Source: Gemmatimonadota bacterium (GTDB lineage Bacteria > Gemmatimonadota > Gemmatimonadetes > Gemmatimonadales > Gemmatimonadaceae). From it: a stretch of DNA of 64,000 nt. Below, piece by piece: positions 316-50,551 of the stretch (the stretch's first letter is position 1; every line of letters starts with the position of its first letter). The notes beneath the pieces were generated by a model. It did no database searches and was not told where the DNA came from. It worked only from the letters and a program-made list of their open reading frames with translations. The position numbers were made by a program, and so were the translations under genes. The DNA lies in assembly GCA_040388625.1 (NCBI GenBank), contig JAZKBK010000004.1, positions 434,001-498,000 of the forward strand, given 5' to 3'.

Positions 316-324
316 TTTGCAGCC

Positions 325-1783: not shown

Positions 1784-2085
1784 CGCGCGTTGTCGTCGTC
1801 ACGCGCGACGCGCACGGGGCCACCACCGACTGACATTCCCAACTGCTCGCGCCACGCACGCACCTCGCGCAGGCGCAGCATTATCGCCTTCTCGCGCTCC
1901 AGATATTCATCCTCGTCGATGTCACCAGCCTCGAGCTCCAGTTGCAGGCGCATCAGGTCTTCCTTGATCGTGGAGTCGTCCGTCAGCTCGTCCTCGACCG
2001 CGCGACGCACCTTGTCCAGCGTCCACATCGTGCCGTCCCACGGCCCGATGAATGGTGCAAGGAGGATGGACGACAGCAACCCCAT
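1780..2085 (-). CDS. gvpG: GvpG gas vesicle accessory protein
   Basis: A small acidic helical protein of about 101 residues. The start is the ATG at 2085, which gives the classic GvpG opening MGLLSSILLAPFIGP. The longer open frame upstream reads as the antisense-like Arg/Ser-rich translation of gvpF and is not coding. The GvpG signature is the amphipathic N-terminus, then a charged helix (KEDLMRLQLELEAGDIDEDEYLEREKA is typical). It begins 1 nt after the stop of the upstream gvpF/L gene and overlaps the next one by 4 nt. Confidence 0.9.
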   Translation of the reverse strand: MGLLSSILLAPFIGPWDGTMWTLDKVRRAVEDELTDDSTIKEDLMRLQLELEAGDIDEDEYLEREKAIMLRLREVRAWREQLGMSVGGGPVRVARDDDNAR

Positions 2086-2086
2086 G

Positions 2087-4070: not shown

Positions 4071-4073
4071 TCG

Positions 4074-5048
4074 CTAGCGGAGACCCATGATCTGCTTGGT
4101 CTCGGTCAACGTGGCGCTGGCGATCGCCCTCGCGCTCGCAGCGCCCGCCGACAGGGCGTCCTCGACACGCTCGGGCGCTGCACGAAGCTCTGCCGCGCGA
4201 GCGCGAATCGGACCCAGCTCGGTCTCCATCGAGGCCTGCAGAACGCGCTTGCAATCGATGCAACCCCAGCCGGCGCTGCTGCACTGTTGCGCCACGTGCT
4301 CGACCGTTGCAGGAGAGCTGAACGCCTTGTGAATGTGATAGATGTTGCAGACTTCCGGAGTGCCGGGATCGGTCTTCTTTACCCGGGCGGGGTCGGTGAC
4401 CGCGGGGCGCAGCTTCTCCCAGATCGCTGCCGGCTCTTCCAGCAGACCAATCGTATTACCGAGTGACTTGGACATCTTCGCCTGGCCGTCCAGTCCCATG
4501 ATGCGTCTGGTCGGAGTGAGCAGCGGCTTGGGCTCGACGAAGAAATCGATGCCGAACTTGGAGTTCCAGCGGCGAACGATCTCGCGCGCGAGTTCCAGAT
4601 GCTGCACCTGATCCTCGCCCACCGGGATGAGCTCGGACTGATACAGCGCGACGTCGGCAGCCTGAAGCACCGGGTAGTTGAGCAACCCCGCGAGGATGCT
4701 CTCCTGGCGGCTCGACTTGTCCTTGAACTGGGTCTGGCGCTCCAGCTCACCCAGCGGAGTCACCGTGTTGAAAATCCACGCCAGCTCGGTATGTTCGGAG
4801 ACCGCGGACTGAACGAACAGGGTGCACTTTTCGGGATCTATGCCGGACGCGAGTAGCGAGATCGCCATGTCGCGCGTGCGACGGCGCAGATCTGCCGGCT
4901 CGTACATGCCCGTTATCGCGTGGTAGTCCACGATCGAGAAGAACGACTCGTATCGGTGCTGCAGCTCGACCCAGTTGCGCACTGCGCCGAGGTAGTTTCC
5001 TATGTGCAGCTCACCCGAGGGTTGAATGCCGCTGAATACACGTGCCAT
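4074..5048 (-). CDS. trpS: tryptophanyl-tRNA synthetase
   Basis: Class I tryptophan-tRNA ligase of 324 residues, close to the usual bacterial length. It charges tRNA-Trp in the cytosol. The HIGH-type motif is HIGN at residues 15-18 (FSGIQPSGELHIGNYLG) and the second signature is KMSKS in AKMSKSLGN. The true start is the ATG at 5048 giving MARVFSG. The open frame to 5402 is antisense to suhB and is rejected. It is divergent from suhB with only 18 nt between the two start codons, and it heads the unit that continues into the peptidase and gas vesicle genes. Confidence 0.97.
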   Translation of the reverse strand: MARVFSGIQPSGELHIGNYLGAVRNWVELQHRYESFFSIVDYHAITGMYEPADLRRRTRDMAISLLASGIDPEKCTLFVQSAVSEHTELAWIFNTVTPLGELERQTQFKDKSSRQESILAGLLNYPVLQAADVALYQSELIPVGEDQVQHLELAREIVRRWNSKFGIDFFVEPKPLLTPTRRIMGLDGQAKMSKSLGNTIGLLEEPAAIWEKLRPAVTDPARVKKTDPGTPEVCNIYHIHKAFSSPATVEHVAQQCSSAGWGCIDCKRVLQASMETELGPIRARAAELRAAPERVEDALSAGAASARAIASATLTETKQIMGLR

Positions 5049-5066
5049 ACGCCAAATATACGAGCG

Positions 5067-5918
5067 ATGACCACAAGTCAGGCAGCTGTTCCATACACTG
5101 GCGAGATCATCGCGAAAATCCTCGACGCGATGATCGTTGCGGCGCGCGCGGCGGAAGGTATAATCTCGGCCGGTGCGACCCGCCGCGGCGACCTCGTCTG
5201 GCAGTCGAAGGGTCTGGCCGATTACCTGACGGAGATAGATACCTCCTCGGAAGCGCTGATCCGGCATGAAATCACCAACGCACTGCACGCCGATTTTCCA
5301 GACCTGCGCGTACTGGGCGAGGAGAGCTGGCGCGATGAGCCGCTTCCGCACGGACTCGCGTTTGTCGTCGATCCGCTCGACGGCACCACGAATTTCCTGC
5401 ACGGGATCCCGGCGTATTCAGTTTCGATAGCCGCAATCCACGACACGGAACCGATCGTCGCACTGGTGCTGGACATTCCGCACGGCGAGCTGTACACCGC
5501 GGTGCGCGGCATGGGCGCGCGACTGAACGGGATACCTCTTCACGTGTCGCAGATATCGGATCCGGAAAGGGCGCTCATCGGCACCGGCTTTCCGTTCGGC
5601 GAGAATGCGGATGCGGTGCGTTATGCGCGCCAGTTCGTTCCGATCGCCCGGACTACGTCGGGAATCAGGAGAGCCGGCTCGGCTGCGATCGACCTCGCAT
5701 GGGTCGCTGGCGGAAGGTTCGACGCCTTCTGGGAGTTGCACCTGTCGCCGTGGGATATGGCGGCCGGCATTCTGCTGGTACGTGAAGCTGGCGGAATCGT
5801 CACCGGCATCGATGGCACGCCGGCCACGATCGAAACGGCGCCGCTCGTGGCCGGTAATCCTGCGATGCACGGATGGCTGCTCGACGTCCTGCACGGCGCG
5901 GACCGTTCTGGAACATGA
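5067..5918 (+). CDS. suhB: inositol monophosphatase family protein (SuhB-like)
   Basis: About 283 residues with the complete signature of Mg-dependent inositol-1-phosphatase-type enzymes: GEES (first metal ligand Glu), DPLDGTTNF (metal-binding and catalytic), and a C-terminal WDMAAGILLVREAGG. It probably dephosphorylates myo-inositol-1-phosphate or a related sugar phosphate. In some bacteria SuhB also binds RNA polymerase antitermination complexes at rRNA operons. The ATG at 5067 is the first in frame. A later ATG at 5130 would also give a normal SuhB N-terminus. The 3' end overlaps the ftcD start (ATGA), so the two are co-translated. Confidence 0.93.
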   Translation: MTTSQAAVPYTGEIIAKILDAMIVAARAAEGIISAGATRRGDLVWQSKGLADYLTEIDTSSEALIRHEITNALHADFPDLRVLGEESWRDEPLPHGLAFVVDPLDGTTNFLHGIPAYSVSIAAIHDTEPIVALVLDIPHGELYTAVRGMGARLNGIPLHVSQISDPERALIGTGFPFGENADAVRYARQFVPIARTTSGIRRAGSAAIDLAWVAGGRFDAFWELHLSPWDMAAGILLVREAGGIVTGIDGTPATIETAPLVAGNPAMHGWLLDVLHGADRSGT

Positions 5919-20680: not shown

Positions 20681-21874
<1,194 letters not shown>

Positions 21875-22020: not shown

Positions 22021-24141
22021 CTATTTCTTCGCCTTGCTCATGATCTCTTCCGCTGCGGCCTTCGGGACTTCCTCGTAATGACTGAACTCCATCGAATAAA
22101 CCGCGCGACCCTGCGACATCGAGCGAAGCTTGGTTGAATATCCAAACATCTCTGCTAGTGGCACCTGCGCATCGATCACCTGCGCCTCACCGCGCTGATT
22201 CATTCCGCCGATGCGACCGCGACGGGACGAAAGATCACCGAGCACATCGCCCATGTAATCGTTCGGCGAAACAACTTCGACCTTCATGATCGGCTCGAGA
22301 ATGATCGCACCCGCCTTGCGTGCGCCGTCCTTCACCGCCATCGAGCCTGCGATCTTGAACGCCATTTCGCTCGAATCGACGTCGTGATACGAACCGTATA
22401 CCAGCTCGACCTTCACGTCCACCATCGGATATCCGGCGATGACACCGCCCTCGAGCGCTTCCTTGATACCAGCTTCGATCGGGTTGATGAACTCGCGCGG
22501 AATCACGCCGCCGACGATCTTGTCCTCGAACACGAATCCCTGGCCCTGCTCGGCGGGCATCACGTTGATTACAACGTGTCCGTACTGCCCCTTGCCGCCA
22601 GACTGACGAATGAACTTTCCTTCAACCTTGTCGACGCGCTTCTTGATCGTCTCGCGATACGCAACCTGCGGCCGGCCGATGTTCGCATCGACCTTGAACT
22701 CACGCTGCATGCGATCGACGATGATCTCGAGGTGCAGCTCTCCCATTCCGGAAATGATCGTCTGATTCGTTTCCGGATCGGAATGCACGCGGAACGTCGG
22801 ATCTTCTTCGGCAAGCTTCTGCAACGCGATCGCGAGCTTGTCCTGATCGGCCTTGGTCTTCGGCTCGATTGCAACGTCGATGACGGGAGCCGGAAACTTC
22901 ATCGCTTCCAGAACGATCGGCTGCTCTTCCATCGTCAGCGTGTCGCCGGTCCGCGTGTCGCGAAGTCCGATGGCAGCGGCGATGTCGCCGCAATGCACTT
23001 CCTCGATCTCCTCGCGCTTGTTCGAGTGCATCTGCAACAGACGGCCGATGCGCTCACGCTTGCCCTTGGTCGCGTTGTACACGTACGAGCCACTCTGCAG
23101 CACGCCCGAGTACACACGGAAGAACGTCAGCTTACCGACGAATGGATCGGTCGCGATCTTGAACGCGAGACCTGCGAACGGTGCGTCGTCGGAAACTTCG
23201 CGCGTCTCGACCAGCTCGTTGTGGTCGGGGATATGACCTTCGACGGGCGGAACGTCGAGCGGGGACGGCATGTAATCGATGACTGCATCGAGCAACGCCT
23301 GAACGCCCTTGTTCTTGAACGAGGCGCCGCACAACACTGGAACGATGTGACCGCCAATGGTCGCAACGCGGATCGCGTGACGAATCTCCTCGTCGCTCAG
23401 CTCCGCGCCACCGAGATATTTCTCGAGCAACGGCTCGTCATGCGAGACTGCAGCCTCGATCACAGCGTGACGTGCTTCTTCGACCGCAGCCCTGAACTTC
23501 TCGGGTACGTCGACAACCTCGAACTTCTTGCCGAGTGATTCGTCGTCGAAGATGTACTGCTTGCGCTCGATGACGTCGATGTGGCCCGTGAACGTATCAC
23601 CCGAACCGACAGGCAGCTGGATCGGATACGACTCTTTCGAGAGACGATCGCGGATCATTCGCATGCAACGCTCGAAATCAGCGCCCGTACGGTCCATCTT
23701 GTTGGCGAAGATCAGCCGCGGAACACCATAGCGATCGCCCTGGCGCCACACGGTCTCCGTCTGTGGCTCGACACCAGCGACCGAATCCAGGAGCGTGACT
23801 GCACCGTCGAGCACGCGCAACGAGCGCTCGACTTCGACCGTGAAATCGACGTGCCCAGGGGTATCGATGATGTTGATGCGGTATTCGGGACCGGTTCCCT
23901 GCTCATCGCTCTGCCCGTGACGGCGCCAGAAAGCGGTAGTCGCGGCAGACGTGATCGTGATGCCACGCTCCTGCTCCTGCTCCATCCAGTCCATGGTGGC
24001 AGTGCCTTCATGGACTTCACCGATTTTGTGCGACTTACCGGTGTAATAAAGGATGCGCTCGGTCGTGGTCGTCTTACCAGCATCGATGTGAGCCATGATG
24101 CCGATGTTGCGATAATGTTCGAGCGGGGTGTGGCGAGCCAT
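22021..24141 (-). CDS. fusA: elongation factor G
   Basis: A 706-residue translocase GTPase. Domain I carries [19 protein letters not shown] (P-loop), [11 protein letters not shown] and [16 protein letters not shown]4 is NKMDR. Domain IV has the family loop ([14 protein letters not shown]) and the C-terminal ends [19 protein letters not shown]. It is normal length, and only one copy is in the window. It has its own promoter 170-200 nt upstream rather than being joined to rpsL-rpsG, which lie 9.4 kb away. Confidence 0.99.
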
Positions 24142-24450
24142 GTCTATATCAGCGAGTCAAATCGTCAGAGAGCAACAAAAACGCGGGTGGACCGGGCGTC
24201 CCATCTGGGACCGGTATCCATCCGCCGCCGCCGGGTGCAGCCGCCATTGATGCGCAGCTGGGGACTCGAGGCGCGCCGGCGTTGGCCGGCGATTGGTTTT
24301 CGGTGTAGCCCTTAATTATACCGCAACTATCCCCCAAGTCAACGCCTCGGCATCACCCAAAACACCGAGCGCAGAGACGCCTGTCCCGAGCGCCCCACAA
24401 GGCCCGCCACGCTCTCAGAAATCCCCCGCTTGTGACGACACTTCGGGGGG
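24142..24450. other. 309-nt divergent intergenic region, fusA / lipoprotein gene
   Basis: It holds the fusA promoter (24315-24342) and the GC-rich fusA leader. No open reading frame with coding character is seen. A clear promoter for the rightward lipoprotein gene was not found. The leader contains GGCGCGCCGGCG/TTGGCCGGCG self-complementary runs that could fold. Confidence 0.5.
24315..24342 (-). promoter_or_regulatory. sigma-70-type promoter of fusA-tuf1-S10 operon
   Basis: On the minus strand, TTGACT (24342-24337) and TATAAT (24320-24315) are separated by 16 nt. The -10 is perfect and the -35 has five of six consensus bases. Transcription would begin near 24307, leaving a 5' untranslated leader of about 165 nt before the fusA ATG. 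Confidence 0.8.
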
Positions 24451-24987
24451 ATGAAAAACCCATCGCTCCTTGGTGGCCGCGCCGGCTTCGCCGCGCTGGC
24501 CCTGTCGCTCGCTCTGTCGCTTGCCGCCACCCTTACCGCCTGCGGCGCCGATTCCGGCATCACCGCCCCCGACACAACCGGCCAGTTCTCGGCCGTAGTC
24601 TCTACCGGAAGTCAGATCTCGCTGACGGGCCAGGCCGGACTCCTCTCCCTGCCGGCAGCCCGCTCGGATACCACTGCCCCACCCCCGAGCGCGATTCTGA
24701 TTCTTCAGGACAAGAAGACCACCGCCCAGATGGGCTTCCAATGGGTCGGGACAGCCCTGCCGGCTGCTGGTACGTATTCCGTAGGGGCCGGCGATCTCGA
24801 TGTCGCCGTGGCCTTCGTGGACAGCACCGGAGCCGTGTTCGACGGCGTCGGCGGCAGCGTTACACTGGGTACGGTTTCGAGCGGCCACGTGAGCGGCAGC
24901 TTTTCCGTGACGGCGCAGCCATCGGATAGCACGGCTCAAACCGCAACTATCTCGGGCAACTTCAACGCCCTGGTCGTCGTCCAGTAG
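24451..24987 (+). CDS. putative lipoprotein, function unknown
   Basis: A 178-residue secreted protein. An N-terminal hydrophobic stretch (FAALALSLALSLAATLTAC) ends in a lipobox with Cys31, so it should be a signal-peptidase-II lipoprotein. After a Thr/Ser/Gly-rich linker the rest is predicted beta-rich (AGTYSVGAGDLDVAVAFVD, GGSVTLGTVSSGHVSGSFSV). No family is recognised with confidence. It is divergent from fusA and stands alone on the plus strand. Confidence 0.75.
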   Translation: MKNPSLLGGRAGFAALALSLALSLAATLTACGADSGITAPDTTGQFSAVVSTGSQISLTGQAGLLSLPAARSDTTAPPPSAILILQDKKTTAQMGFQWVGTALPAAGTYSVGAGDLDVAVAFVDSTGAVFDGVGGSVTLGTVSSGHVSGSFSVTAQPSDSTAQTATISGNFNALVVVQ

Positions 24988-25023
24988 CGATGGCTGACGT
25001 GCGGCTCGCCCGGCTCGGCTGAT

Positions 25024-25275
25024 TCAGGTCGGCCGAGCTGCTTTCCGGCCCGGCTTGCTGATCAGCTCCGCCAGCTGCAGATCGGCCAGCTCGGCCCAGT
25101 TTTCGGGGAAATTCCATAGCCGGCGAAACCCGCGCTCATGTGCGGCAATGAGCGAGTTCGCTGGCTTGCCGCTAGCGTCCCAGACTCGCATCTCGGTAAC
25201 GCGCCAGGCGGTCCCGGTCTCATCTACAATCTCGCGCTCAGGTGACTGCTTGCCCTGCTGATTGTTCGCGCTCAT
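25024..25275 (-). CDS. small conserved-type hypothetical protein
   Basis: An 83-residue soluble, highly charged protein (GTAWRVTEMRVWDASGK, ERGFRRLWNFPENWAELADLQLAELI). The ATG at 25275 is preferred to the longer frame to 25362, whose first 29 residues look non-coding. The aromatic FRRLWNFPENW block looks constrained. I do not recognise the family. It lies convergent with the lipoprotein gene. Confidence 0.6.
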   Translation of the reverse strand: MSANNQQGKQSPEREIVDETGTAWRVTEMRVWDASGKPANSLIAAHERGFRRLWNFPENWAELADLQLAELISKPGRKAARPT

Positions 25276-25467
25276 CGTGGTATTGAATATTTCTGAAGGC
25301 TGTCTCGCGATCCGGTCACTACCATTGTAACAGAGACGATCGAACCACCCCGTGTAACACAATTTCGTAGCGCAAATTCACGGCACGTGAAACTTCGTCC
25401 CGCTGCTCCCGGTCGTGTACTCGCCTCGTGCCGCTAGCGTTCCCTTCTGATCGAGCGTACTCAGTTT

Positions 25468-25926
25468 ATGGATACAGTAGTTCTTGTCACCGATCATCCG
25501 CTGCAGCTGACCAGAAAACGACTGCCGGACGATCCCGAGCTGGCGCCGGGCGTGGCGATCGTGGGAACCTATCTCGACGACGCGTTGCTGACGCGCGCGG
25601 TCGCGGATCCCGACTGGGATAGCGACTCGGACATGGGCCTGCTCAGCGAGCCACGGCGGTTGCACTATCAGGCGACGGAAATCGACGGAGGTACGATCCG
25701 CGCAGAGCTGAGCGCCGTCATTCCAGCTGCAGATATCCCGCGCGAACCGTGGCAGGCCGACCCCGACGACGACGCGCCGCCACTCATCTTTCCGCTTGGA
25801 ATCGTTGTCCGGATCGCAGCAGATCGGACGGGAGCCGAGCTCGATGTGGAGTGCTTCATCCACTTCCAGGCGATTCTGTCGGGCGCCGGCGAGCCGGTCG
25901 CGGACCGAATCCTGAAAAACCTGTAG
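25468..25926 (+). CDS. hypothetical protein
   Basis: A 152-residue acidic protein without signal peptide or membrane helices (LTRKRLPDDPELAPGVAIVG, DDDAPPLIFPLGIVVRIAAD). Third codon positions are strongly GC-rich in this frame, as in neighbouring genes. The long minus-strand frame 25378-25863 is Arg/His-rich and is judged a shadow. A strong terminator follows 26 nt after the stop. Function unknown. Confidence 0.6.
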   Translation: MDTVVLVTDHPLQLTRKRLPDDPELAPGVAIVGTYLDDALLTRAVADPDWDSDSDMGLLSEPRRLHYQATEIDGGTIRAELSAVIPAADIPREPWQADPDDDAPPLIFPLGIVVRIAADRTGAELDVECFIHFQAILSGAGEPVADRILKNL

Positions 25927-25952
25927 GCCGCCGTCACGGCCGTGAATCCGTG

Positions 25953-25991
25953 AAAAAAAACCGCCCGGCGTGGATCACCGGGCGGTTTTTT
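25953..25991. terminator. bidirectional intrinsic terminator
   Basis: An 8-bp stem CCGCCCGG/CCGGGCGG with a 9-nt loop, flanked by A8 on the left and T6 on the right, so it works on both strands. It separates the rightward hypothetical gene from the leftward barrel/Tyr-rich operon. Confidence 0.9.
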
Positions 25992-26018
25992 GTTGCCATT
26001 CAGGCCAATAGCGAGCGC

Positions 26019-27374
26019 TTACGGTCGCTGATGGGCTGTGCGACCACCCGACGACGCGGGCTGCGACGGCGGTGGGCTCTCCGTACGTCCAGTCGCCGAA
26101 GGTGGCGGCGACGAAACCGTCGGGCGCGGCTGGGCAGTCGAAGATCCGTTTCGCGGCGCGGTCTGCGTGTACCCCTTCCCCTTTACGGCGTATCCACGCT
26201 GCTGAGGAGGTCCGGCCGTTCCACCCTTCAGAATGATGACCGGCGGATAGTACCAGCCACCGTAGCCAGTCGCGTAACCGCTGTAAGGTGAGTAGTAGGC
26301 ACCATAGGGTGAATACCCAAACGGCGAGTAACCGTATGGGGAGTAACCGTACGGCGAATAACCGTAGCCGTAATAGTCGTATGGGCTGAAGCCGAACGGC
26401 GCATAACTGAACGGCGCATAAGTAGGCGCCATTATTACGGCGACGTTGGGAGCCTTGGCGCGCTCCAGCTCGGCGCCGGCGACGTTCTCACCAGTGACGG
26501 TTCCTTCCACATTTTCGGGGCGGCTGAGCGCAAACGCCTTGGGATAGGACAGCGCCACCATTGCGTCCGTGACGTTGCCAGGGAGGCCCGCATCCGACAA
26601 CGCGACGAGCTGCTTTGCGTCGACGTTGAATCCCTGACCGCGGTCGATCAACCATGCCGCAACCGCGGACGAATCAGCGTTGTGCGACGCGTCGACGATG
26701 GCGGCGATGGAAAGTGTCTCACCAGCGGCTGCGCGCGCTGTGCTCACGGCAAGTGTCTGATTCGCAAGTGCATCCGATATCTCGGACGGCAAAGTGGTCG
26801 GCGCTCCGGCATCGCTGTAGCGCAACGTGCGCACTGCGGTACTTCCGCTCGCGTTCACGCTCTGGACATTGACCCACTGACCCTGCGGCGAAATCGCGAA
26901 CAGTCCCGACGACGTGCGCTTCAACCCGCCCGGGCAGGTGAAGTCCGAGCTGACGTAGAGGCGGTGACCATCCGCCGACCACTTGGCGCGCTCGGTCCCG
27001 TCGCAGCCATCCTTGCTGCGTGCGACGTTGTGACCCGTCGCAACTATCGTGTCGCGCGAAACGATCTTGCCGTCCTTTACGGTTACGACGTTGACGCTCG
27101 ACGACATGTTTCCACCGCTCGCCGGAACGACGCATACGAGCGGAGCATCGCTGCTTCGCGGCGTCGTGGAGTAAGAGATGGGATCGGCCGATGGAGGAGC
27201 TGCGGGACGCCAGCAACCGATCCACGGCTGCCACCGCGCATCGAGCTGCGCGGTCTGCGACACTTGCTGCGTCTGTTGCGCCCAGCCCGTGGACGGAGCA
27301 CCAACGACGAGCGCTACGGCAGCGACGACGGTTGCCAACCGAGTGTGCCTGAGAACGTACTTGTGACTGCGCAT
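26019..27374 (-). CDS. secreted protein with tyrosine-rich YGYSPYG repeats
   Basis: A 451-residue protein. The N-terminus is a signal peptide cleaved near WAQQ (residues 31-34). Residues 40-300 form a mixed region with several Cys (C54, C81, C124, C147) and a TolB-like feel (WSADGHRLYVSSDF). Residues about 317-377 are a low-complexity tract of YGYSPYG / PYGYSPFG units, almost only Tyr, Gly, Ser and Pro. The last 70 residues are Pro/Ser/Thr/Arg-rich and disordered. No catalytic family is recognised. It starts 11 nt after an outer-membrane barrel gene, so the two are co-transcribed and may work at the cell surface. Confidence 0.8.
   Translation of the reverse strand: MRSHKYVLRHTRLATVVAAVALVVGAPSTGWAQQTQQVSQTAQLDARWQPWIGCWRPAAPPSADPISYSTTPRSSDAPLVCVVPASGGNMSSSVNVVTVKDGKIVSRDTIVATGHNVARSKDGCDGTERAKWSADGHRLYVSSDFTCPGGLKRTSSGLFAISPQGQWVNVQSVNASGSTAVRTLRYSDAGAPTTLPSEISDALANQTLAVSTARAAAGETLSIAAIVDASHNADSSAVAAWLIDRGQGFNVDAKQLVALSDAGLPGNVTDAMVALSYPKAFALSRPENVEGTVTGENVAGAELERAKAPNVAVIMAPTYAPFSYAPFGFSPYDYYGYGYSPYGYSPYGYSPFGYSPYGAYYSPYSGYATGYGGWYYPPVIILKGGTAGPPQQRGYAVKGKGYTQTAPRNGSSTAQPRPTVSSPPPSATGRTESPPPSQPASSGGRTAHQRP
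26244..26426 (-). repeat. in-frame tandem repeat encoding YGYSPYG units
   Basis: The DNA shows about 15-nt periodic units (GGCGAGTAACCGTA variants on the plus strand), encoding repeated YSPYG. Units differ by single bases, typical of tandem expansion by slippage or unequal recombination. Confidence 0.8.
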
Positions 27375-27385
27375 GCCGGCTCCTG

Positions 27386-28198
27386 TCAGTACCTGAAGGT
27401 TAAGCCGATCGTCGTCGACAGACCGGAAAGGTCGATATTGTCGAAGCCCGAAAAGCTGTCGCTCAACTTGCCGTGCGCCCAGATGTACTTCGCTTCACCC
27501 GTGAGCGCGAGGTGTGGCGTGAGCGTGAAATCAAGACCGGCCAGTCCCTGCGCTGCCGGCGCCCAGTTGGATGAATTCAGATCGCTGGTGAAGACGTTGC
27601 TGGTGTTGGCGTCGACGAAGTCGCCGTGCTGGCGGAATCTGTACCACATCGCACCACCACCAACTCCGACGTAGGGTGCAAAGCGCGACGGCACCCACGC
27701 GAACCGTCCGACGGATCGACCACGATCCGCGAGATAGGCCTTGAGGCTCACCATCACAGGAACCCGGCGGAAGTCGGTAGTCTGCGTAATCTCCTGATTG
27801 TTCTGGTCGACCAGATGGCGATAGCTCGACGGAGTGGATGTGCCGGAATACGACGTGCCGAGCACGATGTCGAAACGCGGGGCGACACGTATTGCGAGGT
27901 CGGCACCGACGGTCATCCCACTGAAATCGCTCTTGTTGACCGATAACTGGTTTGTGGTGAACGAGAAAATATCGCTGCCCGCATTGGCGTGCGCGTAGCC
28001 GCCGCTAAGCGTCAGGCTACCGGCGGGTTGTTCGAACAGAAAGCCGTTTCCCGAGCTCTGAGCCGTTGCGGTCGACGTGATTCCTGCGACCAGTGCCGCG
28101 GCACCCAGGACGCGGAAAACGGGGATTCTGCGGGCGATACCGAGCCAGTTGCTTCCCCGGGCCGCCACGTGTGAATCGTGTCGTGGCTTTTCGTTCAC
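27386..28198 (-). CDS. outer-membrane beta-barrel protein
   Basis: A 270-residue protein from a GTG start. A long positively charged N-region leads to a hydrophobic segment (VLGAAALVAGITSTATAQ) with likely cleavage after ATA, residue about 46. The mature part alternates polar and hydrophobic residues with Gly and aromatics (LTLSGGYAHANAG, APYVGVGGGAMWYRF, LAGLDFTLTPHLALTGEAKYIW) and ends in the outer-membrane insertion signal FRY. This fits an OmpA/OmpW-like eight-stranded porin. It lies between a secreted phosphoesterase and the Tyr-rich repeat protein. Confidence 0.82.
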   Translation of the reverse strand: MNEKPRHDSHVAARGSNWLGIARRIPVFRVLGAAALVAGITSTATAQSSGNGFLFEQPAGSLTLSGGYAHANAGSDIFSFTTNQLSVNKSDFSGMTVGADLAIRVAPRFDIVLGTSYSGTSTPSSYRHLVDQNNQEITQTTDFRRVPVMVSLKAYLADRGRSVGRFAWVPSRFAPYVGVGGGAMWYRFRQHGDFVDANTSNVFTSDLNSSNWAPAAQGLAGLDFTLTPHLALTGEAKYIWAHGKLSDSFSGFDNIDLSGLSTTIGLTFRY

Positions 28199-28278
28199 CG
28201 CAGTCTCCGGTTGAGAGGTTTATGTGAATCAATGGTACACTCTGTGAGACCTGGCGGTCCATCGATTGTTAACGGCAA

Positions 28279-29391
28279 TTACCGGCCCGCCGTGGTCTTG
28301 CGGTAGATGTCCGGACCAAAGCTCGCGAGGCCCTTTTCGCCGGCGTAGCCGAGGTGCTCCAGGCCGAACAGGTCCTCGACACTGCGAAGCATGGAATAAT
28401 GGTTGTACGGCACATCTGATACCGTCCCCGGCTTGATGAACGGCGACATCAACACGGCGCCGATGCGACCACCGCCAGGGCCGTGAGCGCCGGGAAGATT
28501 GGTATTTGGCCCGGACGGCTCGTTGCAGCACGCGGACGCATCCGCGCTCGCCGCCTCGTCGAACGTCACGATGAGCAATCCGCCGTCGCGAAATGCCGGT
28601 GAGTGCGTAATGATCGGTACCCAGTGGCTCAGAAATTCATTGGCCGAGACCAATCCGCCCGGCTCACCGCTCTTGCACGGGCGATCGTGTCCGTCGTGAC
28701 AGAGACTGGGTGAGATGAAGCTGTAGCTCGGCGTCCGCCGTGCCGAGCTCAAATCTGCGCCGAGCGCGGTAAGCGGAACGACGTTGCGCTGACAGGACAC
28801 AGTGTCATCGATGATCGAATGGAAATACACGAACGGATTGTGCTTCGCCGCATACTGATCGGTCGGCGTGGCACGCTCCGTCGGGTCGCGTTGTCCGATT
28901 ACGGCGTGTCCGCAGGCGCGCGCTTCACGCGTCGTGTCATTGCCCATGTCTTCCATGTACGCTTTCCACTTCAGGTGTCGTGCGGACAGCTGATTCGCGA
29001 TCGTCTGAACGTGCGCGGGATAGACGCAGCCGAGTCCGATAGGTTGGCCGCCGGGTGCCATTCCGGTCTCGACGAATTCCACGTAGCGGCCGCAGTCGGC
29101 CTGTGTCGCCGGATTCGGCGCGAGCCCTGAAATCATCGTTATGTAGTTATCGAGACTCAGGTGGCCGGTTCCGTAGTACTGACGGAGGAATGCCCCTGCC
29201 TTCGTCATGCTGTCGGCCAGGTACGGGATCTGGGTGTCCGCGCCGAACGTGGTTTCGAAAGACTGGTTTTCGAGGACGATGATGAATACGTGCTTGATCG
29301 GCGGCGGGTGATACGTGCGTGGCGCCGGCATGAGGACCGACAACGCGCACGTACCACCGGTGACAGCATTGCGAATCAGACGACTGAGCAT
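28279..29391 (-). CDS. secreted phosphoesterase (phospholipase C / acid phosphatase family)
   Basis: A 370-residue member of the phosphoesterase family PF04185. The nucleophile motif is HVFIIVLENQSFETTFG at residues 34-50. Others are GTGHLSLDNYITMISG, TFDEA (residue about 276), AHGPGGGRIGAVLMSPFI and NHYSMLRSVEDLFGL. An N-terminal hydrophobic stretch with two Arg suggests export. The substrate could be phospholipids or phosphomonoesters. The family alone does not say. It is the second gene of a leftward group of envelope proteins. Confidence 0.88.
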   Translation of the reverse strand: MLSRLIRNAVTGGTCALSVLMPAPRTYHPPPIKHVFIIVLENQSFETTFGADTQIPYLADSMTKAGAFLRQYYGTGHLSLDNYITMISGLAPNPATQADCGRYVEFVETGMAPGGQPIGLGCVYPAHVQTIANQLSARHLKWKAYMEDMGNDTTREARACGHAVIGQRDPTERATPTDQYAAKHNPFVYFHSIIDDTVSCQRNVVPLTALGADLSSARRTPSYSFISPSLCHDGHDRPCKSGEPGGLVSANEFLSHWVPIITHSPAFRDGGLLIVTFDEAASADASACCNEPSGPNTNLPGAHGPGGGRIGAVLMSPFIKPGTVSDVPYNHYSMLRSVEDLFGLEHLGYAGEKGLASFGPDIYRKTTAGR

Positions 29392-29503
29392 GGCGAATCG
29401 GGATCGGCGTTATGGATGGCCTGCCTCCATCCATAAACTACGAAAACGGTCCCGCCAGCGCTGCTCCGCTCCGTAACGGTACGGAAGCGGAACAGTCCCG
29501 ATC

Positions 29504-30346
29504 TCACGGAAAGTGAAACACGCTCTTGATCGTCTTCTTAACCGCGTCGTTTGCCTTCTGCTTGGCCGCGTCAGCTGTGGAGCTCGCCGCATTGTTGCCG
29601 ACGTCCTTTGCAGCCGCCCCGAACATGTCGGCAATCGCCGTGCTGCCGCCTTTCAGCTGCATTAGCAGCGCGCTCTCGTCGAGCTGGTGGTAGCCCGCGG
29701 GAATCTGGAATACAGCGTCCGGCTGGGGCCCTTCCTGAACATTCTGGAGGTCCATCTCGCTGTTCTTGTCCTGCGACCTGCTTACGACATGAAGCTTATT
29801 GTCTATCCATGCGTAGCCTGACTGGGTGGTGCCGTTCGCATCGGTGGTCGTGACCGCCCACTTGTGAGCCGGACGGCCGTTCACGACGTCGGAGCCCGCG
29901 CTCTGACAGGTGAAGTGTGGCGCCTTGTGCGTGCTGTCCTGAAAGCGAAGGACCGCTTGGTTCCAGGCGCTGCACGGATCGCTGGTGGCGGGCGCGAACA
30001 GGCGCACGAGCGTGGGCGCCCCCGAACCGTTCAACACCGCGTTCACTATCGGGGAGTTGCTGCCGCCGATGTACGAGCGGTTCTTGTCCATCACTATCAC
30101 GGTCGATTTCTGGCCGGCGTCCCAGATCACACTTCCCTCCGGTTGGCCGTTCTGGAGCGTCTGGATCCGCATCTTTGTCTTGCCGACGTAGACTCGGGAC
30201 GTGTTCGTGCCATTCGCCGGTGTGCTGACGACGTCGGCGGAGAACTCCTGGGCGCCCGCCGAGCTCGCCGCGAGCGAAGTCACGGCCAGCGTCAGGCTCA
30301 TGACCACGCCCAGTCTTCGAAATCCGTTGCTCACTCTTGCCTCCAT
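29504..30346 (-). CDS. secreted LolA/DUF4412-like protein
   Basis: A 280-residue exported protein with a classical signal peptide (VVMSLTLAVTSLAASSAGAQ, cleavage near residue 33). The mature part resembles DUF4412/LolA-type half-barrels (RVYVGKTKMRIQT, GSVIWDAGQKSTVIVMDKNRSYI, NGRPAHKWAVTTTDANG, GYAWIDNKLHVVSRSQD). Residues about 245-280 form a lysine-rich amphipathic helix. It could bind lipids or act in envelope maintenance. Assignment is by pattern only. Divergent from the SARP regulator. Confidence 0.75.
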   Translation of the reverse strand: MEARVSNGFRRLGVVMSLTLAVTSLAASSAGAQEFSADVVSTPANGTNTSRVYVGKTKMRIQTLQNGQPEGSVIWDAGQKSTVIVMDKNRSYIGGSNSPIVNAVLNGSGAPTLVRLFAPATSDPCSAWNQAVLRFQDSTHKAPHFTCQSAGSDVVNGRPAHKWAVTTTDANGTTQSGYAWIDNKLHVVSRSQDKNSEMDLQNVQEGPQPDAVFQIPAGYHQLDESALLMQLKGGSTAIADMFGAAAKDVGNNAASSTADAAKQKANDAVKKTIKSVFHFP

Positions 30347-30523
30347 GGAACTTGTCCGCAGGCCGTCTGAATCCGCTCGGGAAGGTGACGCCAGCGCGGC
30401 GGTTATTGAATTGCGACATGAAAATGGTCGTCCGTGACGGGGCCGTCACGAGACCGTCACTTGCCGAGTTACGAGGGCGAATAGCATATTCAGGCTGCGG
30501 TAAGGCCTCGCCTAAGGCTGACA

Positions 30524-33490
30524 ATGATTCGCCTTGATACGTTGGGCGCGCTCGCGTTGCGTGGATCTGAGGGCGGTGAGCTGCGATCGGTGCTTACCCA
30601 ACCCAAGCGGCTGGCACTTCTGTGCTATCTCGCCGTCGAATCGCCGCGTGGCTTTCAGCGCCGCGACCGGCTGTTCGGACTGTTCTGGCCGGAACTCAGC
30701 CAGCCACAGGCTCGCCAGGCACTGCGACAGTCGCTTTATTTTCTGCGTCACTCGCTGGGCGAACCGGTGGTCGCCAACCGCGGAGCCGACGAGATCGGCG
30801 TCGACCCGTCGGTATTCCGCTGTGACGTTTCCGCCTTCCTGGATCTCTACCAGCGGGGCAGGCTCGAAGACGCCCTGGCGCTTTATCATGGCGACTTTCT
30901 CGCTGGATTCTTCGTGGACGAGCCATCGCCGGCTTTCGAGCACTGGCTCTATTCGACACGGGATGAGCTACGGAACATCGCAACCAACGCCGCGTGGACG
31001 CTGGCTGACGAGGCTGCGAGTCGCGGCGGTTCGAGCGAGGCTGCCCACTGGGGCCGATACGCGAGCCGACTCGATCCGGACGACGAGCGGTCGCTGCAAC
31101 GTCTCATCCGGCTGCTGGATAGCCAGGGTGACCGGGCGGGTGCACTGCGGGCGTATGCAGACTTCGCAGCATCACTTGCGACCGAGTTCGCTGCTGAGCC
31201 ATCGGCGGAGACCCGTGCGCTGATCGAAGCGGTGCGGAGCCGCACAGAACCATCGCATGCGGTCGCGTGGACGTCGGCGAAAAAGAACCAGGACACGCGT
31301 GACGATGCTGACAGGATGCAGCCACCCGAGCTGTCGCACAGAACCGCACTGGCCTCGGTGGCACCAACTACGGCAGCGCATGATTCATTCGCATCAACCG
31401 GCACGCGACGCACGTTCGCTCGTGACCGCGCATACCTCGTGCTCCCGTTTCTCATACTCGTCGCAGTCGCCGTCCTGGCTACGCGATACTTCCGGCGCGC
31501 GGATACGCCACCGATAGTGGCGGTGGGATGGATTCAGGATCCCAGCGGCGCCGATACCGGTGCGATCACGCGAACGTTTGCGGAATTGCTGGCGACCGAT
31601 CTCGCGCGCGTCCCGCGCCTCGGAGTTGTGAGCCGCGCCAGGCTGTATGATGTGCTTGGTCAGCTCGGTGCGCATGACGAGACGCCATCGGCTATCGCCG
31701 ACGCTGCACGACGCGCTGGTGCAACGCAGCTCATAGAGGCGGTGCTGTCGCGCGCCACGGACAGCACGATCCGCCTCGACGTTCGCCGCGTCGATCTTGC
31801 GACCGGCACAACTCACGGAATGCGGACCTTGCACGCAACTACCGTTGTGGATCTTGCGGATCGTGCGACTGCGCAGATTGCAATCGATTTCGGACTTCGC
31901 GCACCGACCAGGCCGCTGACCGGTGTGACAACGACGTCACTGACGGCACAGCGTCTCTATGAAGAGGGACTGCGCACGTTCTACAGTCGCGACGTGCCGG
32001 CTGCTGTCAGGTTGTTTCACGCGGCGCTGGACGAGGATTCAACATTTGCGATGGCGGCGTATTACGCCGGTGTCGGCGAGGAACAGACCGATGGACTCGC
32101 CGCGCGACGCGATCTTGCACTAGCGCTTCGTCTTGCCAGCCACGCTCCAGATCGTGAGCGACTGATTATTCGGCAGACCTGGGCATACGCCACCAACGAT
32201 CCAGCACAGCTCGCAATCGCCGAGTCGCTGGTGGCGGGCTACCCTGGTGATCCGGACGGCGAACTGGCGCTCGGCCGCGCACTCGGATGGAGCGGCGACT
32301 TCCTCGGCGCCATTCCGCATCTCCAGCGCGTGATCCACATGGACTCTCTCAGTCTGGCTGGACGGAGTCCGTGGTGTCGTGCGTGCGACGCGCTGGAGCT
32401 CGCGATCGCATCCTACATTGGCGCGGACTCGATGGACGCGACCGAGCGAGTGACGCGAGACTGGACCCGCATGCAGCCGCACACGCAGGAACCGTGGTGG
32501 TACCTCGCGTCCATGCTCGCACGCGAGAATCGTTACGACAGCGCGCTCGCCGCCGAGCACACCGCGGAGCGCCTGTCATCCGATCCCGCTGGAGACGTCA
32601 TAACGCGCGCGACGATCGCAATCGGCGCAGGTCGGTTCGCCGCTGCGGATCAGCTGTTGAGTGCACAGGCACAGGATGCCAACGCGGCACGGCGAAGTGA
32701 CGCACTGTGGTGGCTCATCATCAGCCTTCGGCATCAGGGACGTCTGCACGAAGCACTTGCCATTGCAGAGCAGATGGTGAGAGCCAGCGCGGACGAGCCG
32801 CCGGGTTTCAGCACGCCTCGCTCTCTGGATGCCCTCGCGATCGCGCAGGTGAATTTCGAGATGGGACACTTCGAGCTTGCTGCAGCGCAGTTCGACTCGA
32901 TCTCCAATTACGAGTGGCAGTTCTCGCGCGGGTTCACCAGGGAAGCACCCGGCCTCCTCGCGCGTCACCGAATCTGGATGACGACGCACGTTGCCACGGC
33001 GCTCGCTGCGGCACACGACACCACGCGACTAGCCTCGCTCGCCGATAGCGTAGCACTGTGGGCCAGACAGAGCGCGTTCTTCCGTGACCGTGTACTGCAC
33101 CACTACGTCCGTGGACTTCTCCTCGAAGCGCGCGGAAACAACGTCGCTGCCGAGCGCGAGTTTCGTGACGCGATGGTTTCACCCATCGACGGATACAATC
33201 GCGTGAATCTGGAGCTGGGCAAGGTACTCATCGCGGAGGGACGGCCGCGCGATGCGATCGCGGTGTTACAGGCACCGCTGCACGGATCGCTCGAAGCATC
33301 GAATTACTATCTAACGCAGACCGATCTCGAAGCGATGCTGGGCCAAGCGTTCGATCGCGCAAGCGAGCCCGACAGCGCGGTCAGCCACTACCGGCGCGTG
33401 CTCGCCGCGTGGCGTAACGCGGATCCAGAGTTCCGTCCGCGAGTGGCGGCAATCGCACAGCGTGTGCGCGTGCTCACTGCGAGGCGCTAA
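30524..33490 (+). CDS. SARP/BTAD-type transcriptional regulator with membrane anchor and TPR region
   Basis: A 988-residue protein. Residues 1-95 are an OmpR-like winged helix (RLDTLGALALRG, LTQPKRLALLCYLA, RRDRLFGLFWPE, ARQALRQSLYFLR). Residues 100-240 are the bacterial transcriptional activation domain BTAD. A single transmembrane helix lies at 304-323. Residues 330-450 resemble the TolB/adenylyl-cyclase-associated sensor segment (TFAELLATDLARVPRLGVVS). The rest is TPR-like helical repeats. DNA-binding faces the cytoplasm and the repeats the periplasm. ATG at 30524 follows AAGG. Divergent from the LolA-like gene, which may be its target. Confidence 0.88.
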   Translation: MIRLDTLGALALRGSEGGELRSVLTQPKRLALLCYLAVESPRGFQRRDRLFGLFWPELSQPQARQALRQSLYFLRHSLGEPVVANRGADEIGVDPSVFRCDVSAFLDLYQRGRLEDALALYHGDFLAGFFVDEPSPAFEHWLYSTRDELRNIATNAAWTLADEAASRGGSSEAAHWGRYASRLDPDDERSLQRLIRLLDSQGDRAGALRAYADFAASLATEFAAEPSAETRALIEAVRSRTEPSHAVAWTSAKKNQDTRDDADRMQPPELSHRTALASVAPTTAAHDSFASTGTRRTFARDRAYLVLPFLILVAVAVLATRYFRRADTPPIVAVGWIQDPSGADTGAITRTFAELLATDLARVPRLGVVSRARLYDVLGQLGAHDETPSAIADAARRAGATQLIEAVLSRATDSTIRLDVRRVDLATGTTHGMRTLHATTVVDLADRATAQIAIDFGLRAPTRPLTGVTTTSLTAQRLYEEGLRTFYSRDVPAAVRLFHAALDEDSTFAMAAYYAGVGEEQTDGLAARRDLALALRLASHAPDRERLIIRQTWAYATNDPAQLAIAESLVAGYPGDPDGELALGRALGWSGDFLGAIPHLQRVIHMDSLSLAGRSPWCRACDALELAIASYIGADSMDATERVTRDWTRMQPHTQEPWWYLASMLARENRYDSALAAEHTAERLSSDPAGDVITRATIAIGAGRFAAADQLLSAQAQDANAARRSDALWWLIISLRHQGRLHEALAIAEQMVRASADEPPGFSTPRSLDALAIAQVNFEMGHFELAAAQFDSISNYEWQFSRGFTREAPGLLARHRIWMTTHVATALAAAHDTTRLASLADSVALWARQSAFFRDRVLHHYVRGLLLEARGNNVAAEREFRDAMVSPIDGYNRVNLELGKVLIAEGRPRDAIAVLQAPLHGSLEASNYYLTQTDLEAMLGQAFDRASEPDSAVSHYRRVLAAWRNADPEFRPRVAAIAQRVRVLTARR

Positions 33491-33499
33491 CGTGGATGA

Positions 33500-33548
33500 C
33501 AAACAAGAATCCCGCCTCGTGCAGATGACGAGGCGGGATTCTTGTTTG
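33500..33548. terminator. bidirectional terminator between the SARP gene and rpsG
   Basis: A long perfect hairpin AACAAGAATCCCGCCTCGT with its exact complement after a 7-nt loop. The arms end in A-rich/T-rich runs on both strands. It closes the SARP transcript and the rpsL-rpsG transcript, which run towards each other. Confidence 0.9.
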
Positions 33549-33564
33549 CAGACGTCTGCGACTG

Positions 33565-34035
33565 CTACCAGCGATAGTGCGCGAACGCCTTGTTGGCTTC
33601 CGCCATTCTGTGGGTGTCTTCCTTCTTCTTCACGGCGTTGCCCTCGCCCTTGCTTGCCGCGATGACTTCGGCTGCGAGCTTGTCGGCCATGGACTTCTCG
33701 TTGCGGCCGCGTGAGTAGAGGATCAACCAGCGCATCGCGAGTGCCGTACGGCGCTCGGGGCGGACTTCGACTGGAACCTGGTACGTGGCGCCGCCGACGC
33801 GACGGCTCTTCACTTCGACCATCGGCTTGAGGTTGGCGATCGCCTGCTTGAAGACCGTGACCCCGGGCTGAGCGGTCTTCGCCTCGACGCTGTCCATCGC
33901 GTCGTTGAAGATGCGCTCGGCCGTGCTCTTCTTGCCCTGATACATCATGACGTTGATGAACTTCGCCACGGTCTGGCTGTCATAGCGCGAATCCGGAAGG
34001 ATGGTGCGCTTGACTGACTTTTTGCGACGGCTCAT
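33565..34035 (-). CDS. rpsG: 30S ribosomal protein S7
   Basis: A 156-residue S7 ([75 protein letters not shown]). It organises the 30S head and the tRNA exit site. Its ATG directly follows the rpsL stop. fusA, its usual downstream partner, is missing from this spot. Confidence 0.98.
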
Positions 34036-34443
34036 TTACTTCTTCCCCTTGGTCGGTGCGGCCTTTCCGCCGGCCTTCGGCTTCTTGGTCCCGTACTTCG
34101 AGCGGCTGCGATTGCGGCCATTCACGCCGGAGGCGTCGAGAGTGCCGCGAACGATGTGGTAACGAACGCCAGGCAGGTCCTTCACACGACCACCGCGAAT
34201 GAGCACGATCGAGTGCTCCTGCAGGTTGTGACCCTCGCCCGGGATGTATGCGGTGACTTCGAAGCCGTTGGTGAGACGAACGCGCGCAACCTTCCGGAGG
34301 GCGGAGTTAGGCTTCTTGGGGGTGGTTGTGTACACGCGAGTGCACACGCCACGCTTCTGGGGATTGGACTTGAGCGCTGGCGCCTTTTCTTTCTTGGCCA
34401 CATCGCTGCGGCTCTGGCGTACCAGCTGATTGATTGTCGGCAT
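34036..34443 (-). CDS. rpsL: 30S ribosomal protein S12
   Basis: A 135-residue S12 in the decoding centre. It has [22 protein letters not shown] and [15 protein letters not shown]. The two lysines whose change gives streptomycin resistance (KKPNS and RVKDLPG) are both wild type. A lysine-rich tail ends the protein. It is preceded by a GC-rich region with no rpoC readthrough gene directly adjacent. Confidence 0.98.
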
Positions 34444-35392: not shown

Positions 35393-36886
35393 GTGAACGC
35401 ACCGATTGCGATCGCGGCGATACTTGCGACGGTCGGCATTCTGCTGGGCGGCTCCGTCGTTCTGACCCGCCTCACGGGACGCATCGGGATTCCAATCGCA
35501 CTTGGCTTCATCGCGGTGGGACTTCTGGCCGGTTCCGAAGGAATCGGCCACATCGCGTTCGAGAACTACAGCTTCGCGTTCCGTGCAGGCGTCGTCGCAC
35601 TGGTGCTCATCCTCTTCGACGGCGGGCTCAACACGCCGCCGTCGTCGCTGCGTCCGGTTGCCGCGCCGGCCCTCCTGCTCGCGACCGTCGGTGTGGTTGC
35701 AACAGCTGGAGTACTCGCTGCGTTCGCGCACCTTGCCGGCGGCCTCGACTGGCCGATCGCGCTGCTCATCGGCGCGGTGGTTTCATCGACCGATGCAGCT
35801 GCGGTGTTCGCGACGTTGCGCGGCAGCGGCACCTCGCTCAAATCACGCGTTGGCCGGTTGCTGGAAGCGGAGTCCGGACTCAACGATCCTGTCGCGATCA
35901 TCCTCACGATATCTCTCACGACGTTCGTGTTGTATCGCACGATCGAGAATGGCGGGAGCGTCTGGACACTCCCACTCACCGCGACATTCGAGATCGTGGT
36001 TGGCGGCGTCGCAGGGTGGCTCGCCGGCAAGGCGTCGACAAAACTCATAACTCAGGTACGCCTCGAGTCCGCCGGCCTCTATCCGGTGCTGACGCTCGCC
36101 ATAGCGATGACGGTTTTTGGCGTTACCACCCTGCTGCACGGAAGCGGCTTCATGGCAGTCTATGTCGCGGGTGTCGTGATCGCAGGCGCCACGCAACTGC
36201 CACACCGGCCAGCAATTCTTCGCGTGCACGATGCGTTCGCGTGGCTGGCGCAGATCGGGATGTTCCTCGTGCTCGGGCTGCTCGCATTTCCCACGCGTCT
36301 TGCAGCCGCAGCACTGCCGGGCCTCGGCCTCGCACTCGTGCTCACGCTGGTCGCGCGCCCAGCCGCCGTTGCGCTGTGTCTCGCACCGTTTCGCTACTCG
36401 CTCCGCGAAACGACGTTCATCGGCATCGTTGGACTGCGCGGCGCGGTTCCTGTCGTACTTGCAACCATCCCTGTAATGGCCGGCATTCCCGGCGCGCGCC
36501 GCATCTTCGATGTGGTGTTCTTCATCGTCGTGCTGAACACGCTGATGCCAGGCACGATCGTGGCGTGGCTCGCGCGCAAGCTGGGTGTGGTCGGAGCGGC
36601 GACACCCGAGGCGGCGGCGACGATCGTGATCGAATCGAGCGAGCCGATGCAGAGCTCGCTCAGATCGTATTTCGTGGACAGGGCATTGCCCGTATGCGGT
36701 GTGCCACTATCCGAAGTCCCGTTTCCGGACGGCGCCGCTGTCACGATGATCGTTCGCGGCACGGCGTTGCTGGTCGCCGAGGGCGCGACCCAGTTGCAAC
36801 CGGGTGATCACGTGTATGTGCTCGCATCGCCCCAAGCGGACCCGATGATACAACTTCTGTTCGGCCGACCGGAAATTCTGGAGTGA
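35393..36886 (+). CDS. CPA1-family cation/proton antiporter with a RCK-C (TrkA-C) domain
   Basis: A 497-residue membrane protein from GTG at 35393. About 12 helices span residues 1-395, with typical Na+(K+)/H+ exchanger segments (GRIGIPIALGFIAVGLLAG, VALVLILFDGGLNT, VSSTDAAAVFATLRG, LLEAESGLNDPVAIIL, GLRGAVPVVLATIPV). The soluble end (about 415-497) resembles TrkA-C (LRSYFVDRALPVCGVPLSEVPFP, LQPGDHVYVLASP). This matches NhaP2/CvrA-type potassium/proton antiporters that control K+ and cell volume. Ion choice is not certain. Confidence 0.9.
   Translation: MNAPIAIAAILATVGILLGGSVVLTRLTGRIGIPIALGFIAVGLLAGSEGIGHIAFENYSFAFRAGVVALVLILFDGGLNTPPSSLRPVAAPALLLATVGVVATAGVLAAFAHLAGGLDWPIALLIGAVVSSTDAAAVFATLRGSGTSLKSRVGRLLEAESGLNDPVAIILTISLTTFVLYRTIENGGSVWTLPLTATFEIVVGGVAGWLAGKASTKLITQVRLESAGLYPVLTLAIAMTVFGVTTLLHGSGFMAVYVAGVVIAGATQLPHRPAILRVHDAFAWLAQIGMFLVLGLLAFPTRLAAAALPGLGLALVLTLVARPAAVALCLAPFRYSLRETTFIGIVGLRGAVPVVLATIPVMAGIPGARRIFDVVFFIVVLNTLMPGTIVAWLARKLGVVGAATPEAAATIVIESSEPMQSSLRSYFVDRALPVCGVPLSEVPFPDGAAVTMIVRGTALLVAEGATQLQPGDHVYVLASPQADPMIQLLFGRPEILE

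Positions 36887-49357: not shown

Positions 49358-50551
<1,194 letters not shown>

Follow-up and report, generated by a model that had tools for sequence, protein, structure and literature searches.

Few bacterial gene orders are as conserved as that of the str operon, and phage satellites and small prophage remnants form a familiar category of genetic element. Hotspots of horizontal transfer between core genes have been described by Oliveira et al. (2017; PMC5635113), where homologous recombination in the flanks is proposed for those free of integrases. Streptococcal integrative and conjugative elements insert in the 3' ends of the ribosomal-protein genes rplL, rpsI and rpmG (PMC4701971). Here we describe the junction between rpsG and fusA in a stretch of 64,000 nucleotides from a Gemmatimonadota bacterium of the Gemmatimonadaceae (hereafter the window; assembly GCA_040388625.1, contig JAZKBK010000004.1, positions 434,001 to 498,000), in which a block of 9.4 kb separates the two halves of the str operon. 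We consider it likely that this block is the present content of a junction that, in this family, behaves like an open transcription-unit boundary and no longer like the interior of the str operon.

The locus resembles the hotspots of PMC5635113 in having accessory genes between two fixed core genes, a fast turnover and, often, no mobility genes, whereas it differs from them in lying inside an ancestral ribosomal operon that became separable. The formal hotspot test given there uses many strains of one species, while our sample holds one genome per species. With the streptococcal elements of PMC4701971, the locus shares a tyrosine integrase of about 400 aa adjoining the site in a relative (G044); unlike them, the target is rpsG and the element in G044 carries phage replication- and head-type genes. 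The kind of system is already known, both as a hotspot and as integration at the 3' end of ribosomal-protein genes, and it is the place that is unusual. In the open-access literature searched, we found neither rpsG as a target of integrases or islands, nor a split str operon in Gemmatimonads, nor a phage satellite with its attachment site in a ribosomal-protein gene.

The rpsG-fusA junction is split in most of the family

The gap in the window is bounded by the fusA start at 24141 and the rpsG stop at 33565, both on the minus strand, and spans positions 24142-33564, or 9,423 bp. Open reading frame (ORF) calling places eight genes in it, five on the minus and three on the plus strand. A sequence-only reading of this DNA had reported a 9.4-kb split filled with seven or eight genes on both strands, with rpsL-rpsG and fusA-tuf left on the same strand in ancestral order. 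The split is real, the gene count is eight, and rpsL, rpsG, fusA and tuf all lie on the minus strand with their order kept.

Gap sizes were taken from the coordinates of rpsG and fusA, entered by hand, in two overlapping samples of 79 and 130 genomes; "family" denotes our genome group f1, of Gemmatimonadaceae type. Both genes lay on one contig in 51 of 71 family genomes and in 79 of 87 other genomes of the phylum, the genes being on different contigs or missing in the remainder. Within the family, 42 of the 51 measurable genomes are split. In 41 of these the gap measures 1,010 to 41,290 bp, with a median of 7,325, and in the other the two genes lie on opposite strands. The nine unsplit genomes have gaps of 334-603 bp. 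An inversion is found at the junction in G021 (L043), in which fusA-tuf lies on the strand opposite rpsL-rpsG, about 12 kb off. Outside the family only three of 79 genomes are split (2,464, 3,079 and 3,280 bp) and the other 76 have at most 573 bp, which supports the earlier claim of an insertion relative to an ancestral rpsG-fusA adjacency; the comparison with related genomes that had been proposed thus shows a variable junction. A scan of named genomes with rpsG, from which the best 80 of at least 591 matches were used, returned seven matches at 82-85% identity, all named Gemmatimonadaceae, Gemmatimonadetes, Gemmatimonadota or Gemmatimonas. Among 80 named rpsG loci drawn from many phyla, 69 do not bear a Gemmatimonad name, and 67 of them have a fusA gap of 14-429 bp; the other two are L089, with too short a flank, and L144, without fusA within 10 kb.

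As a control, we compared 28 gene pairs along the ribosomal and RNA-polymerase superoperon in relatives, with 9 to 30 family genomes per pair. The pairs tufB-nusG and cysS-tufB were excluded, since with two near-identical copies of tuf the partners cannot be told apart reliably. For fusA-tuf, 13 family genomes were judged; the other 17 of 30 gave a false distance, tuf lying outside the sequence used. Of the 26 evaluable pairs, 24 were tight (at most 780 bp, with small genes within some) in every family genome sampled, and only rpsG-fusA and rpoC-rpsL were broken; adk and map stood 3,026 bp apart in one outgroup genome. Judged by gene order, the rpsG-fusA junction behaves like an operon boundary. 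The second break, overlooked by the sequence-only reading, is occupied in the window by a Na+/H+ antiporter gene on the opposite strand (35393..36886, plus), which separates rpoC from rpsL and is common to the genus. This boundary is variable in relatives, with the two genes within 600 bp in six of 18 family genomes.

Size and content change among close relatives

In a phylogeny of rpsL, rpsG and fusA covering 68 genomes (a short search, with 11 of 64 inner forks weakly supported), the adjacent and split states interchange at least nine times over 61 labelled genomes, ten outgroups included, and at least six times over the 51 family genomes. These counts disagree with a single, vertically inherited split in all relatives, which the sequence-only reading had named as its refutation. 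Content or size changes inside genera g1, g13, g20 and g24: gaps measure 557, 567, 1,889, 10,952 and 41,290 bp in g20, 497, 1,253, 4,020 and 4,298 bp in g24, and 603 and 1,441 bp in g13. Because unsplit genomes are nested inside split clades (G107/G120 by G127, G143 by G152, and G019 by G018/G033), the site has at the least been either emptied or filled several times. A genome of g24 (G157) with the order rpsG, DinB-type gene, fusA looks like the state that preceded the insertion in G114. In this family the str operon can thus be followed as it breaks up, genomes with the two genes adjacent, slightly separated or parted by a large load occurring together within single genera, so that the loss of integrity of an essential operon becomes a directly testable question.

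ORF calls and an all-against-all comparison showed that the inserted genes are mostly unrelated from genus to genus. Their Pfam content, obtained from a small part of the insert genes, includes TonB receptors, kinases, a sulfatase and peptidases, and a 41-kb insert in G101 (L195-L197) carries MotA, MotB, FHIPEP, flagellar hook-type and flagellin genes. In that insert, almost every called ORF lies on the strand opposite rpsG. Variable accessory content therefore lies between the same two core genes and changes among close relatives, as in a hotspot. Gene order and phylogeny indicate that the split is an insertion relative to the ancestral order and that the junction is a family-wide hotspot of horizontal transfer, not the site of one module. 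In a little-studied phylum, the site could be mined for accessory genes and biosynthetic clusters.

Nine family genomes carry a lasso-type cassette at the junction (G032, G006, G008, G014, G024, G029, G034, G036 and G126). In G032, to which the domain scan was confined, the insert holds PqqD, transglutaminase-type, asparagine synthetase, HPr-kinase-like, ABC transporter and nucleotidyltransferase domains, a set that we take, by its likeness to the gene content of such clusters, to belong to lasso peptides. The same domains as in lasso-peptide clusters with a kinase and a nucleotidyltransferase are thus present in G032; they are not in the window's block. The other eight cassettes were recognised by clustering and some are incomplete, and G040 has a single cassette gene. 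Among the lasso-type loci (L049 and its relatives), several contain small ORFs of 53-60 aa that could be precursors.

The tree of the cassette partly resembles the fusA tree of the nine genomes, with G024, G034 and G036 together in both. The nine-genome fusA alignment rejects G024 and G034 as sisters (p 0.0009) and the cassette disfavours G126 with its fusA relatives (p 0.038), the clade having been chosen in each case after the trees were seen. In the 39- and 68-genome trees, G034 falls away from G024 and G036, though its cassette is closest to that of G024, and the presence of the cassette requires at least five changes on the tree. From these trees, long residence and movement both appear possible.

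These data bear on the idea of a single old rearrangement in the family ancestor, followed by ordinary gene turnover without a special entry mechanism. A split ancestor is compatible with the tree, most family members being split, and the partly fusA-like history of the nine-genome cassette suggests that some content may be ancient; the variable rpoC-rpsL boundary next door points the same way. We nevertheless judge such a history somewhat improbable, given the unsplit genomes nested in split clades and the six or more changes in the family, the movement suggested by the cassette of G034, and the integrase elements described below, which sit with their matching repeats precisely at the end of rpsG.

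Predicted transcription signals at the two sides of the gap

A putative fusA promoter, TTGACT-16-TATAAT (24315..24342, minus strand), agrees with the consensus at 11 of 12 positions, ends 173 bp upstream of fusA and is found at the same site in G001 and G002. The strong promoter of its own that had been ascribed to fusA thus holds as a sequence match at a conserved site. A generic promoter scan gave two sites in 13 kb versus 2.4 expected by chance, and the support for the promoter is its conservation. In 15 of 56 family loci and three of 10 outgroup loci, the motif TTGACW-N16-TANNNT lies no more than 330 bp ahead of fusA; the shuffle rate is 0.0006. The presence of the motif in unsplit family genomes (G019, G046 and G137) and in outgroups (G049 and G059) suggests that fusA may have had an independent promoter before the insertions occurred, and hence an order of events in which fusA gained its own promoter first and insertion came later.

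On the other side, a strong, near-palindromic intrinsic terminator is predicted 3' of rpsG (33503..33545, minus strand, -32.9 kcal/mol), which was also seen as a self-match; by eye, G001 has a similar stem with a compensatory change. With a cut-off for strong terminators that we set near -15 kcal/mol, within 130 nt of rpsG, 31 of 42 split versus two of nine unsplit family genomes have one (Fisher p 0.006, relatedness ignored). The description of the block as closed by terminators is borne out by the rpsG hairpin and not by a generic scan, which gave 11 terminator-like sites versus 9.1 expected. These signals suggest that fusA is transcribed independently. With a predicted promoter at fusA and, usually, a predicted terminator behind rpsG, genes could enter without cutting fusA off.

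Integrase elements and repeats of the rpsG end

In G044, a gene encoding a 404-aa Phage_integrase protein directly follows rpsG, and about 9.0 kb farther on 36 bp of the rpsG 3' end, stop codon included, are repeated perfectly. Between the repeats are AAA helicase/primase-like and head maturation protease genes, a match of tape-measure type (1.9e-12) and a weak match to an excisionase (0.0012). With its size of about 9.0 kb, its integrase and its phage-type genes, this element resembles a phage satellite or small prophage remnant and could be a decayed prophage. Two further relatives, G164 and G037, have a tyrosine recombinase next to rpsG (68% and 50% identical to that of G044); as in G044, the rpsG end is directly repeated on the far side, over 38 and 35 bp, in the manner of attL and attR. 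This arrangement suggests that the integrases act on the rpsG end.

We searched 179 family genomes for the rpsG-end 30-mer with at most two mismatches; 159 matched and 20 had no match. A second copy was found in seven (G037, G044, G114, G164, G190, G236 and G240) and none was found with the reversed control. The second copy in G240 is ambiguous, its contig beginning within rpsG, and G236 has a completeness of 71%; neither bears the integrase claim. Relatives of the G044 integrase occur in 28 of the 179 genomes and, among the places listed, stand beside rpsG only in G044, G037 and G164. Three genomes carry longer duplications that comprise the rpsG end and its terminator: a perfect one of 152 bp in G190, one of about 160 bp with about 90% agreement in G114 and one of about 211 bp in G236. 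No integrase of the G044 family adjoins them, and either short-homology integration or the decay of an element would fit. A scan for att-like repeats over 51 inserts of at least 900 bp, partial contigs and three non-family loci included, with 15 shuffles each, placed G114 (score 166) and G044 (72) far above the shuffles (maximum 26). G041, G021, G140, G006, G002, G074, G028 and G008 exceeded their own shuffles by 1-4 points, and the remaining inserts did not.

The block in the window is layered

The sequence-only reading saw the block as an inserted module, that is, one island acquired by horizontal transfer, and proposed a check of the codon usage, GC and phylogeny of its genes. Codon usage and GC fit the genome: the distance in codon usage between the block and the other non-ribosomal genes of the window is 0.037, versus a mean of 0.057 for random gene sets, so that the atypical composition of a single island was not found. 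Nor is the block present or absent as one unit in close relatives, since only part of it is common to the genus. G002 is collinear with the window's block (94%). G001 has the phosphoesterase, beta-barrel and Gly/Tyr-rich genes in common with the window, along with DNA that matches the 152-aa and 83-aa ORFs, and a TonB receptor lies between these shared parts. It lacks a match to the lipoprotein gene and holds a 105-aa ORF and an amidohydrolase fragment where the window has the BTAD regulator and the DUF4412 gene. In G003, a protein kinase lies next to rpsG and the contig ends inside the phosphoesterase. The rpsG-proximal content is thus of three kinds among the four congeners (G000-G003).

Relatives of individual genes point the same way. 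The phosphoesterase has relatives (E at most 1e-30) in 16 of 79 genomes, and in 12 of 12 non-congeneric ones they lie on a contig other than that of rpsG, the rpsG-fusA junction being broken by a contig end or unread in three of the 12. Relatives of the BTAD regulator (E at most 1e-80) occur in 11 of 47 genomes at scattered locations. That eight genes fill a single continuous gap and are absent from this place in outgroups is what one island would produce. Its native composition, the partial sharing with G001, the TonB receptor there, the different rpsG-side genes in G001 and G003, and the dispersed relatives of the phosphoesterase and the regulator make such an origin very improbable, and the module of the sequence-only reading does not survive the comparison, other genera having mostly unrelated genes at this place. 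We rejected the foreign-island reading on composition, codon usage and the within-genus comparison. The comparison among congeners indicates instead that the block is layered, part of it genus-wide and part differing among congeners.

DNA alignments between the congeners stop exactly at the rpsG stop codon. We discarded this as evidence of site-specific insertion: because the terminator beyond it looks homologous in G000 and G001, the sharp end would partly reflect lost alignable sequence.

A proposed open boundary and possible routes of entry

Taken together, the comparisons favour a junction that acts as an open boundary, at which fusA appears to carry its own promoter and rpsL-rpsG usually its own terminator, both predicted from sequence. 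Genes would then enter, turn over and probably leave repeatedly; the comparison shows the turnover, the direction of single changes being inferred. One route in would be tyrosine-integrase elements with phage-type genes that use the last 36 bp or so of rpsG as attB, the integrating element rebuilding the 3' end of rpsG, as sequences from three relatives suggest. A bolder version holds that the rpsG 3' end is a lineage-wide attachment site in Gemmatimonadaceae and that small phage-derived elements, integrating again and again after the gain of the fusA promoter, dissolved the str operon and parked their cargo there (lasso-peptide clusters, the flagellar cluster and the envelope genes of the window). 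This we put forward tentatively and regard as doubtful in its full extent.

Alternatively, by analogy with PMC5635113, cargo may be swapped when the conserved flanks, rpsL-rpsG and fusA-tuf, undergo homologous recombination. The rpsG protein reaches at least 81% identity in each of the 45 family genomes in which it was matched, the duplications in G190, G114 and G236 are what short-homology integration could leave, and no integrase was seen in most of the inserts examined, with part of their genes scanned. We regard flank recombination as a serious candidate with a little less than an even chance of being correct.

Several observations count against an open boundary served by integrases. The variation at rpoC-rpsL may mean that rpsG-fusA shows no more than ordinary boundary behaviour, and the unsplit genomes may owe their state to secondary deletion. 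The fusA motif was not found in 41 of 56 family loci and only three of the nine unsplit genomes have it; a strong terminator within 130 nt of rpsG is missing from 11 of 42 split genomes and present in the two unsplit ones mentioned above. Only three of 179 genomes have an integrase together with a repeat, and seven have any second copy, so that perhaps a minority of the inserts is due to integrases. A single contig holds both repeats in G044 alone; in G037 and G164 they lie on different contigs, with the far one upstream of fusA. Neither an integrase nor an rpsG-end repeat was found in the window's block (repeat score 24, shuffle maximum 25), and viral contigs held no exact rpsG-end 30-mer and, in a search that sees close relatives only, no relative of the G044 integrase. 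We still favour the open boundary as the account of the window's block.

Genes of the block and of the surrounding window

Upstream in the operon, rpsL (34036..34443, minus) adjoins rpsG in all 30 family genomes compared, and the 3' end of rpsG (33565..34035, minus) is the flank nearest the insert, with the putative attB in relatives. The first gene beyond the terminator encodes a 988-aa BTAD (SARP-type)/TPR regulator (30524..33490, plus), present at this spot in G000 and G002 and not in G001 or G003. It is followed by a DUF4412 secreted protein with a marginal Pfam match (29504..30346, minus) and an acid-phosphatase-like phosphoesterase (28279..29391, minus) found at the same spot in all four genomes of the genus. 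A putative outer-membrane beta-barrel type protein (27386..28198, minus; without a Pfam match, its CglE match being sub-threshold) and a Gly/Tyr-rich secreted protein (26019..27374, minus) were both recognised by eye and are common to G001 and G002. A 152-aa protein with no family assigned (25468..25926, plus) and an 83-aa ORF (25024..25275, minus) each have a DNA homologue in the same order in G001. The last gene, a putative lipoprotein by eye (24451..24987, plus), is divergent from fusA and has no DNA match in G001. The enrichment in secreted and outer-membrane products noted by the sequence-only reading comes down to signal-like N-termini seen by eye; five of the eight proteins fall below every curated Pfam family cut-off and all eight below the NCBIfam cut-offs.

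Downstream, fusA (EF-G; 22021..24141, minus) still adjoins tuf (20681..21874, minus). A second tuf copy (49358-50551) lies in direct orientation about 28 kb from the first, is very similar to it (starts compared by eye) and adjoins four clustered tRNA genes (Thr, Gly, Tyr, Thr). The contigs of many relatives end just past fusA, perhaps owing to the tuf repeat. At the far end of the window (13-5402) are genes whose sequences look like those of gas-vesicle proteins of the GvpA/J and GvpL/F types.
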